The notes under the pieces: generated by a model
The model's input: only the letters and a program-made list of their open reading frames with translations
What the model was told of the DNA's origin: nothing
Database searches by the model: none
Made by a program: the position numbers and the translations under genes
NCBI GenBank assembly: GCA_024687165.1
Contig: JAILEY010000032.1
Location: 1-63,602, forward strand
Origin: Treponema sp.
Lineage (GTDB): Bacteria; Spirochaetota; Spirochaetia; Treponematales; Treponemataceae
Direction: 5' to 3'
Length of the DNA: 63,602 bases
Shown here: in pieces, positions 1-17,779 of the stretch
Position numbering within the stretch: the stretch's first letter is position 1
How the letters are laid out: each line of letters begins with the position of its first letter

Positions 1-10
1 CTGTATAAAT

Positions 11-44
11 TTATACACAAATTTCGTCTAAAAATTTATACACA
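11..44 (+). other. two DnaA-box-like 9-mers
   Basis: TTATACACA occurs at 11-19 and again at 36-44, same orientation, 25 bp apart. Both fit the DnaA-box pattern TTATNCACA and lie in very AT-rich DNA at the window edge. They could be the flank of an origin, DnaA-regulated sites, or chance in AT-rich sequence. What lies further upstream is not visible. Confidence 0.35.
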
Positions 45-220
45 GGGTTTATTTTTTTCTAATAGTCTAAAAAAAATCAAAAAAATCTTACAAAATTTCT
101 GTAAATTTATTCAAAAATCTCCAGATTTAATTCAATTTTCATGTAAATTCAATTCAATTTTAAGCATTAAGTTTCATTTAATTTTATTTTTAGAGAAATT
201 TAACTTTTTAAAATTTTAAT

Positions 221-235
221 TGGCACAATTTCTGC
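221..235 (+). promoter_or_regulatory. candidate sigma-54 (-24/-12) promoter of the sigma-factor gene
   Basis: TGGCAC (221-226), five bases, then CTGC (232-235) fits TGGCAC-N5-TTGC with one mismatch. The invariant GG (222-223) and GC (234-235) have the required 10-bp gap. Transcription would start near 247, giving a leader of about 50 nt with an AGGAG ribosome site at 284-288. No comparable sigma-70 promoter at 16-18 bp spacing is seen here. Assignment is by motif only. Confidence 0.6.
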
Positions 236-296
236 TCATAAATTTACATAATAAAAAGTCTTAAATACAAATTAAAAATTTTCAGGAGTCCAAAAT

Positions 297-1106
297 ATGG
301 AAAACGAAACAATTAAAGAGTATTTGAGCTCAATCAAGAATTATCCCCTTCTTTCAGCAGAAGAAGAACAGGCTCTTTCAAAGAAAATTCAGAAGGGAGA
401 CAAGGCTGCATTGCAGAAACTCATCAACTCGAATCTTCGTCTTGTTTTAAGTGTTGCAAAAAAGATGAAGACATCACAGTCAAACATCATGGATCTTATT
501 CAGGAAGGAAATATGGGACTCATGATCGCAGCTCAGAAATTCAGTTCTGCATTTAAGACAAGATTTTCTACTTATGCATATCCATGGATTGCCCAGTATA
601 TGCTGCGATTTCTAAACACGAAGTCTTCATTCATCACTCTTCCTCACAGAAAGGAACTTATCATCCGCAAGATTCAGAATGCACAATCTTATTTCTTCCA
701 GCAACATGGACGTGAACAGACTATACAGGAACTTGCACTTTTCCTTGGTCTTGAAGAAGAAAAGGTTATCGAGTACCTCAGCTATTCTTATACAGTAGCT
801 TCTCTCGATCTTGAAGCAAATGATGAAGGAAGTTCTGCAACAATTGGAGACCTTATTGCAGATAACACATACAATCCTGAAGAACTTCTTGCACGAAATG
901 AAACAAAAGAATACATCCGTTCAATGATGAGCAAACTTTCAAAGAATGAACAGACTGTACTCTGGTACCGCTACAATCTTGACGGAGACATGCACACAAA
1001 AACTCTCCGTGAAATCAGCAAAATCATTGGTGTAAGTCCTGAAGCTGTTCGCCAGACAGAAATTCGTGCAGTAAAGCACATGAAGCAGCTTGTTTCTAAC
1101 TATTAA
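297..1106 (+). CDS. RpoS/RpoD-like sigma-70 family factor lacking region 1.1
   Basis: This 269-residue protein directs RNA polymerase to a promoter subset. It begins directly with region 1.2 (residues 4-55), followed by the region 2 core-binding and -10 recognition helices (about 49-105, including DLIQEGNMGLM), region 3 (about 110-165) and a region 4.2 helix-turn-helix (about 235-265, REISKIIGVSPEAVRQ). Without region 1.1 it is shorter than a housekeeping RpoD and closer to RpoS-type alternative factors. The start follows AGGAG by 8 nt. It stands alone, ends in a hairpin terminator, and has a -24/-12 sigma-54 motif upstream, as in the Borrelia RpoN-RpoS cascade. Whether it is an RpoS orthologue by descent cannot be decided here. 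Confidence 0.85.
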   Translation: MENETIKEYLSSIKNYPLLSAEEEQALSKKIQKGDKAALQKLINSNLRLVLSVAKKMKTSQSNIMDLIQEGNMGLMIAAQKFSSAFKTRFSTYAYPWIAQYMLRFLNTKSSFITLPHRKELIIRKIQNAQSYFFQQHGREQTIQELALFLGLEEEKVIEYLSYSYTVASLDLEANDEGSSATIGDLIADNTYNPEELLARNETKEYIRSMMSKLSKNEQTVLWYRYNLDGDMHTKTLREISKIIGVSPEAVRQTEIRAVKHMKQLVSNY

Positions 1107-1173: not shown

Positions 1174-1206
1174 GCTGTCTGAAAAATCAGGCAGCCATTT
1201 TTTTTA
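1174..1206 (+). terminator. intrinsic terminator of the sigma-factor gene
   Basis: GCTGTCTG (1174-1181) pairs with CAGGCAGC (1188-1195) with one G-U pair, followed by a run of T. The T-run almost touches the -35 of the next promoter (1207), so the two transcription units are packed end to end. Confidence 0.75.
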
Positions 1207-15712: not shown

Positions 15713-17779
15713 TTATACCTTGAAGAGTCCAAGTTTACTCTGAAGCACTTCAATATTTCTATTTGTATCAAGGGCAAGATTAGATACACTCTGAGAAGAA
15801 GAACTGATCTGCTGTGCACCAGCTGCCATTTCATCCATACTTCCAAGAATAGTTGAAGAAATCTGTGTTACAGAGCCCATATCATTTGATACAGAATTAA
15901 TTACATCCTTAACATCACGGGACTTTTCACTTACACCAAGAGTCTGGTTTCTGATGTCACCAAGAGCTTCAAATACCTGACGTGATGCTTTTTCCTGCTC
16001 ACTCATTGCACCATCAATCTGACGAATAACAGAATCTGTTTCATCAAGATGTGTAACAATCTGACCGAATGCAGTCTGTGAATCCTTTGAAAGTTCAACA
16101 ACATCTTTAATTGATGCAGAAATCTGCTTAAGTTCAGCATTGATATTCTTTGACTGTGCACTTGAAGTTTCTGCAAGCTTACGGATTTCATTTGCAACAA
16201 CAGAGAATCCTTCACCTGCCTTACCCGCATGAGCAGCTTCGATTGCGGCATTCATTGCAAGAAGATTTGTTTCAGACGCAATCTGAGAAATAATCTGGTT
16301 GGCCTGAATAAGCATCTTAGACTGTTCTGCAATTTCACCGACTTTTCCGTCAACATTTGCAAGTTTTGTCTTGCCGTCACCAACAGTAACACTAAGTTCC
16401 TTAAAGCTGTCTGACATTTTATGAACTGAATCAGTAACAGATGAAATATTTTCAAGCATTTCTTCAATTGCTGCAGAAGATTCAGTAACTGCTGCTGACT
16501 GTGCATCAACCATGTTTTCAAGTTCACCAACAGAAGAATTAGCCTTTGCAAGAACTGTAGTTGTATTATCTACGGCAGAAGCCTGATTTTCAGACTGTTT
16601 GCGGACACCTTCAATATTTGCCATAATCTCTGCCGTTGCACTTGCAGATTCCTGAGAGTTTGTACCAAGATTCTGACCAATCTGCGAAAGTGAATTCTGA
16701 GCTTCATTAAGATCACGGACAATATCCTGAAGCATCTCAATAAATGTGTTTACATCGCGTGAAATGAAAGCAAATTCATCATTACCTCTAACAGGAACAC
16801 GAACTGTAAGATCTGCATCTCCGGAAGCAAGATTCTTCATTGCAGAACCAACATTTTTGAGAGGTCTGATAATCTTAAAGTAAATTAATAAAATAAATAT
16901 ACCAATAATTACGAGTGTAAGAACTATTTCAACAAAAATAAGAGACTTGAAAATCAGGCTTGAAACATGTTCAACAACAGCCATTTCTTTTCCAAGATAA
17001 AGTGTAGTAAGGAATTTTCCATCTGAAGTATTATAAGGGAAGTAATAAACAACGTACTCTTTTCCACCGATTATTGCAGTTCCTGAAAAATCCTTTCCTC
17101 TTTCACAAAGACGTATAGGATTTGAATTTGCAATTTTTGTACCAATCATTCCAGCGAGTGTTGTATAAGCGCGGGTCTCACCATCGAATACTGTAAATTC
17201 ACAGTTTGTCATAGACTTTATTGATTCTGCAAAATGCTGTGAAGTTACTTTTTTTCTCAAAAGAACAGCACCAACAACTTTACCTTCTGCACGAACAGGA
17301 GCGGCTTCAGTAATAACAATATCAGAGCTTTCCTTTTTAATTGCTACAACTTTATTTCCGATTACTGCTTTTCCAAGAACATCCCCATACATAGAAGAAT
17401 TACCGTATTTGAAAGCAGAAACCTGATGAAGTCCACCATCAACAACTGCAACTTCTGCAAGAGCGAAGCTGTTTTTTGCCACTTCAAGCAAAGCGTTTAC
17501 AGATTCAGATTCAAAAGTATTTTTTGCCGCAAAATTATGTCCTACAGATTCTGAAATCATCTTCTGAACATTATCAAGTTCCTGTTCCGAAGATTTAATC
17601 TGTTCCATTACGAGCTTTGAATAGCCCTTTACATCACCTTCAAAATATGAGACAAGACCCTTTCTAAGAAGGCTGCTGATAAAAAAGAACGATGTAACTG
17701 TAAATACAACAAGTCCAAGAACGATAGATCCAATCAGGATAACCGAAACTGATGATTGTTTATCTTTGCTGAAAATCAT
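15713..17779 (-). CDS. methyl-accepting chemotaxis protein
   Basis: A 688-residue transmembrane chemoreceptor. TM1 is at about 11-35, a periplasmic Cache-like sensor spans about 40-275 (including [11 protein letters not shown]-type and [11 protein letters not shown] segments), TM2 lies at about 280-303, then HAMP ([19 protein letters not shown]) and a long coiled-coil signalling domain with the hairpin tip near residues 540-560 ([20 protein letters not shown]). It signals to CheA/CheW; ligand unknown. A GAGGAG site precedes the ATG. It is monocistronic. Confidence 0.93.

Follow-up and report, generated by a model that had tools for sequence, protein, structure and literature searches.

A likely sigma-54 promoter upstream of an RpoS-like sigma factor gene in Treponema, and its conservation in spirochetes

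Introduction

The RpoN-RpoS cascade is usually viewed as a host-adaptation device of Borrelia. Does a gut treponeme place an RpoS-like sigma factor under sigma-54 as well? The question is raised by the first bases of the window analysed here, which is the whole of contig JAILEY010000032.1 (C72, 63,602 bp) in a Treponema sp. assembly (GCA_024687165.1, 2.38 Mb, 97% complete). The first-pass annotation had proposed that a TGGCAC-N5-CTGC motif drives an RpoS-like gene of the sigma-70 family, and that this parallels the order RpoN to rpoS of Borrelia burgdorferi. As far as the open-licence literature shows, the sigma-54 to RpoS-like wiring was previously established only in Borrelia, and no open-licence papers joining Treponema with sigma-54, RpoN and RpoS were found. 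A survey associates COG0568 with sigma-54 regulation, and control of a sigma-70/32-type gene by sigma-54, as would occur here, is seen there too; a search of its main text gave no mention of Treponema or Borrelia (PMC12316311). We consider it very likely, with a probability of roughly 0.88, that positions 221-236 are a sigma-54 promoter driving an RpoS-like sigma factor, hereafter sigma A.

The promoter and its conservation

The features of the locus are collected in Table 1. In TGGCACAATTTCTGCT, the GG at 222-223 and the GC at 234-235 are separated by 10 bases, which is the canonical sigma-54 spacing. The site agrees with TGGCAY-N5-TTGC with a single departure: TTGC begins with C instead of T. 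From the promoter end to the sigma-A ATG (297) there are 60 bp. The motif, its spacing and its distance to the gene are as the first-pass annotation had described them. The gene product contains regions 1.2, 2, 3 and 4, and it lacks region 1.1, as was also noted there. The transcription start is predicted near 247 because the -12 C lies at 235. A strong terminator follows the gene, so that sigma A is probably transcribed alone. A sigma-70-type promoter was searched for upstream of sigma A (1-296) and none was found.

Table 1. Features at the start of the window
Feature	Position	Strand	Basis
Candidate enhancer dyad 1, TGTATAAATTTATACACA, 1 mismatch to TGTATA-N6-TATACA	2-19	.	
Candidate enhancer dyad 2, CGTCTAAAAATTTATACA, 2 mismatches; 23 bp after dyad 1	25-42	.	
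Likely sigma-54 -24/-12 promoter, TGGCAC-N5-CTGCT = TGGCACAATTTCTGCT	221-236	+	sequence, motif scoring, conservation
Predicted +1	247	+	inferred from -12 C at 235
Ribosome-binding site AGGAG	284-288	+	sequence
Sigma-70 family factor 'sigma A', 269 aa, regions 1.2-4.2, clade of Borrelia RpoS	297-1106	+	
Intrinsic terminator	1174-1203	+	z -3.59

TGGCACAATTTCTGCT is the top-scoring sigma-54 site of the whole window, and none of 20,000 Markov shuffles of the sigma-A upstream region (296 bp, 18.6% GC) reaches its score. One-mismatch matches to the motif occur in the window at chance level (3 observed vs 3.55 expected), and a related pattern counted over the whole genome gives 12 matches vs 8 for the reversed control. 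Two of the runner-up sites of the window, at 17129 and 37935, are intragenic and were treated as chance. Since motif counting is not significant and the sequence by itself does not decide, conservation was used, and it provides the decisive evidence.

Upstream regions of relatives at genus, order and phylum level were scored with a matrix that approximates the published sigma-54 consensus, for which the null is about 0.3-0.4% per upstream. In the sigma-A clade, a site with a score of at least 14.5 is found within 200 bp upstream in 78 of 89 loci (null 0.36% per upstream), which represent many families, although kin loci are not independent. Six further loci carry a TAGCAY variant site, and at four (L010, L193, L205 and L169, the last with its best site at -248) there is no recognisable site within 200 bp. 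L140 was rejected as a siteless exception because it groups with RpoD. The clade of the paralog, sigma B, shows a near-consensus site in 41 of 51 loci and a TAG variant in 4 more. The block TTGGCAC...TGCT does not vary among the three closest relatives, and the upstream region around it is divergent. The expected rpoS site was recovered in Borrelia-like genomes, our positive control, and no such sigma-54 site is seen upstream of the window genome's own RpoD and FliA genes. The site is absent from Brachyspira-like (f18) and Leptospira-like (f34, f39) genomes, while rpoN is present in all of those tested. The -24/-12 motif, whose loss in close relatives would have spoken against the first-pass proposal, is therefore kept in close and distant relatives. 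Such a distribution supports a wiring that would be order- to phylum-wide and present in most of the spirochete phylum.

Two genomes deserve a separate remark. In one Borrelia-like genome (L247, G141), rpoN looks broken, with eight stops in the match, and the -24/-12 site of rpoS is retained; a 2011 survey likewise did not find rpoN in B. turicatae (PMC3162934). In a T. pallidum-like genome of 1.1 Mb (G126), sigma A and sigma B were not found, and rpoN and two AAA+ activators remain.

Candidate enhancers and activators

The first-pass annotation had pointed to rpoN, an NtrC-type activator and upstream enhancer sites as what such a promoter calls for; rpoN, activators and candidate enhancer sites are all found. 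The rpoN gene is complete, with activator, core-binding and DNA-binding domains and the canonical RpoN box SRRTVAKYR. Three strong sigma-54 activators are encoded in the genome, two of them with a Fis HTH. The first (C18) is a receiver-AAA+-Fis response regulator of the NtrC/Rrp2 type, whose gene adjoins that of a histidine kinase. The second (C6:79887-81404) is a GAF-AAA+-Fis protein with the loop GAFTDA. The third (L004) is an AAA+ protein in which no Fis domain was detected, and its neighbours resemble rsmE and wecG-type genes. GAF sensor, AAA+ domain, Fis HTH and dyad upstream sites are a combination known from NifA/VnfA-type activators; the window genome departs from these in the dyad sequence TGTATA-N6-TATACA, the likely sigma-gene target and the loop GAFTDA.

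The candidate dyads of the window are rich in AT, and their distance to the promoter, about 180-220 bp, is rather large. Our view upstream is limited by the contig start at base 1, and further dyad copies would lie beyond it. Across sigma-A loci, the A dyad is kept at a distance of about 105-240 bp before the -24 element. An unbiased dyad search over the Treponemataceae sigma-A loci ranked GTATA-N6-TATAC first (24 of 26 loci; shuffle maximum 16), and in a separate family set TGTAT-N8-ATACA came first (15 of 28; shuffle maximum 7). The genes upstream of sigma A vary between loci (among them AsnRS and ThrH-like, both named by eye) and the dyad is constant. Sigma-B loci carry another class, TGTGT-N7-ACACA (TGTGTCA-N3-TGACACA). 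The two classes almost never swap: the A dyad is found at 37 of 54 A loci and 1 of 35 B loci, the B dyad at 0 of 54 A loci and 19 of 35 B loci. None of the other sigma-54-like sites tested in the window genome bears the A dyad, which is thus so far seen only before sigma A in this genome. These conserved dyads are candidate upstream activator sites.

Which activator would read the A dyad? Full-length orthologs of the GAF activator are present in 28 of 29 genomes with sigma A outside Borrelia vs 2 of 16 without sigma A, and the single sigma-A genome missing it is 79% complete. Fisher's test gives p 1e-8, uncorrected. After correction for ancestry, 1-2 supported independent co-changes are left, with none in the opposite direction, and the association is therefore suggestive. 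Six genomes without sigma A (G003, G004, G006, G010, G014, G041) encode activators of about 310 aa that match the GAF protein over AAA+ and HTH only; these are possibly remnants without the GAF domain. We regard the GAF-AAA+-Fis protein as the probable activator of sigma A. Its counterpart in T. denticola ATCC 35405 is probably TDE2079, because the gene order (S1-domain, TPR) is the same as in the window genome; TDE2079 is listed as a sigma-54-dependent regulator between S1-domain and TPR genes (PMC3914990).

A rival account accepts the sigma-54 promoter and assigns it to the NtrC/Rrp2-type response regulator on C18, with the dyads bound by another regulator. The kinase/response-regulator pair does exist in the window genome, and in B. 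burgdorferi, where there is one such sigma factor, Rrp2 activates rpoS without an enhancer (PMC1976401). In line with this, sigma A of Borrelia-like genomes is not accompanied by the GAF activator, and their single match above the cut-off has the size of a response regulator. For the window genome, however, we find this account unlikely: sigma A and sigma B bear different dyads, the GAF activator tracks sigma A, and other activators, of response-regulator size, are still present in genomes without sigma A. A response-regulator activator of the Rrp2 type is present, yet the dyads and the GAF activator point elsewhere.

In the mechanism we propose, RpoN-RNA polymerase would wait at 221-236 as a closed complex. 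An AAA+ activator, most likely the GAF-AAA+-Fis protein, would bind both dyads, loop to the polymerase and open the complex, with the start near 247. Sigma A would then redirect the polymerase to its own promoters. Of this, the site and its conservation, rpoN, the activators, the dyads, the association across genomes and the altered region 4.2 are seen in the sequences; we infer the binding, the looping, the RpoN dependence, the identity of the activator, a signal and the sigma-A regulon.

Relationship of sigma A to Borrelia RpoS

Six sigma-70 family genes are found in the genome: RpoD, FliA, two small genes that may be ECF factors to judge by their size, sigma A and its paralog sigma B. Sigma A does not resemble a primary sigma factor, as both region 1.1 with a long N-terminus and the TRERIRQIE motif are missing; the genome's own RpoD is a 634-aa frame at C49. 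Sigma A could instead be an independent group-2/3 sigma factor that acquired a sigma-54 promoter convergently and is no relative of RpoS. This would agree with its score of 183.7 bits against the proteobacterial RpoS equivalog TIGR02394, below the cut-off of 378.7. It would also agree with the long branch of Borrelia RpoS and with AU tests in which forcing Borrelia RpoS together with RpoD or sigma B is rejected at borderline only (p 0.053 and 0.08). The trees speak against it. In a 145-row tree, sigma A and Borrelia RpoS share a clade that does not include RpoD and sigma B, and a balanced 39-row tree separates sigma A and Borrelia RpoS from RpoD and sigma B with support of 98/87.6. In addition, region 4.2 of the sigma-A members including Borrelia reads mostly S-[PAST]-E-[TAS]-[VI]-R-Q, while both positions concerned are still basic in RpoD (TRERIRQIE) and sigma B (mostly TKERIRQIE). 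We judge convergence improbable.

Sigma A thus falls into the clade of Borrelia RpoS and, with the AU tests being borderline, appears to be orthologous or near-orthologous to Borrelia RpoS. Its altered region 4.2 suggests a changed -35 preference. "RpoS-like" stands in the sense of Borrelia RpoS and not in the sense of the proteobacterial protein.

The Borrelia parallel also needs to be divided. The order RpoN to sigma factor stands, and it is partly homology, because sigma A groups with Borrelia RpoS and has the region 4.2 signature in common with it. Both systems show a -24/-12 site directly before a homologous sigma gene, rpoN and an AAA+ activator. What differs is the likely arrangement of activator and enhancer: the window genome has two sigma genes, each with a likely sigma-54 promoter and its own dyad class, and its best candidate activator is the GAF protein, which is absent from Borrelia-like genomes. 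Nor is the wiring unique to this genome. The parallel concerns the wiring and lends no support to a host-adaptation role of sigma A; the functional data that come closest are those on stress responses of the paralog in T. denticola.

An altered RpoN box and candidate TAG promoters

In five T. denticola-like genomes, TAGCAY is found before sigma A, and the four T. denticola-like sigma-B loci examined also show TAGCAY. The RpoN box of these genomes reads AVRTVNKYR, so that Arg455 (E. coli numbering) is lost (R455V). Arg455 and Arg456 have been described as invariant and as recognising CTGGC in the -24 element (PMC9770992), and alanine at either one abolishes -24 binding (PMC7175178). Three more genomes of the genus are informative: one has the box STRTVNKYR and carries TAG upstream of sigma A and TGG upstream of sigma B, and two that retain the Arg have TGG promoters. 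Loss of Arg455 to Val or Thr thus appears to covary in trans with TAGCAY at the sigma promoters, with a mixed state in the Thr genome (RpoN loci L239, L240, L242-L244 and L292; promoter loci L163-L167, L178-L181, L293 and L304). The covariation may reflect a single evolutionary event. In the five T. denticola-like genomes, TAG sites number 4-12 vs 0-2 in controls. Because TGG sites exceed their controls too, a relaxed -24 recognition fits better than a switch.

That the motif is a chance match, with read-through or an unrecognised sigma-70 promoter accounting for transcription of sigma A, would suit the chance-level motif counts but is hardly credible given 78 of 89 clade loci against a 0.36% null, the covariation with the RpoN box and the lack of a sigma-70-like promoter in 1-296.

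Sigma B and the T. denticola stress response

In the window genome, sigma B (L259) is encoded immediately after groES, and a separate sigma-54 site, TGGCACAGTATCTGCT (G000 C86:32134-32149), lies 52 bp before the sigma-B start. Two TGTGTCA-N3-TGACACA-like dyads are located 101 and 141 bp upstream of this site. Published primers for TDE0937 match L180 with no mismatch, and TDE0937 is the T. denticola sigma B, a paralog of sigma A. It resembles the window genome's sigma B in adjoining groES as well; the gene in the window is the other paralog. The sigma-A gene of T. denticola ATCC 35405 is probably TDE0070.

TDE0937 rises 21.8-fold with oxygen, 14-fold upon osmotic downshift and 2.8-fold with heat, in a paper that describes T. 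denticola as missing RpoS homologs and whose consulted passages contain no link of TDE0937 to sigma-54 (PMC2965109). In the Hpk2/Rrp2 pair of T. denticola, the kinase senses oxygen and its partner is predicted to be a sigma-54 activator (PMC12070737). It is attractive to propose a route from oxygen via Rrp2 and RpoN to sigma B.

In T. denticola-like genomes, TAGCAY also occurs 35 bp before a Dps-like ferritin gene and 109 bp before a peroxiredoxin gene (L274 in G231, L266 in G106, L273 in G186). With oxygen, the T. denticola ferritin TDE0449 goes up 8.3-fold and the peroxiredoxin TDE0011 38.6-fold (PMC2965109); these are likened to the TAG-site genes by description, not by identity. In the window genome, sigma-54-like sites lie before an Hsp20-like gene (C42:2526, L251), a DUF1015-like gene (by eye; C23:45501, L249) and an uncharacterised gene (C71:78523, L254).

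Implications

The kind of circuit described here is already known from Borrelia. What the comparison would add is a pair of sigma targets with enhancers of their own, another likely activator for sigma A and, in one clade, an altered sigma-54; in particular, the two candidate enhancer dyad classes, a GAF activator that tracks sigma A, and the loss of Arg455 in a T. denticola-like clade with TAGCAY at both sigma promoters appear to be new. We lean towards an ancestral spirochete circuit that puts one or two RpoS-like sigma factors under sigma-54 via separate enhancers, and in which the sigma-54 of the T. denticola clade became relaxed at -24, with Arg455 changed to Val or Thr and TAG accepted for TGG.

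If this is true, the cascade would be old in spirochetes, and Borrelia would have inherited it and put it to a new use. The circuit would provide a regulator for TDE0937, the unexplained oxygen-stress sigma factor of T. denticola, and would contradict the claim that RpoS homologs are missing in this organism. It would also predict which activator reads which enhancer. Furthermore, the T. denticola clade would hold a naturally occurring sigma-54 of altered specificity and promoters that co-evolved with it, and the covariation of Arg455 with TAG would offer a natural experiment on the reading of the -24 element by sigma-54 through a contact that has been called invariant (PMC9770992).
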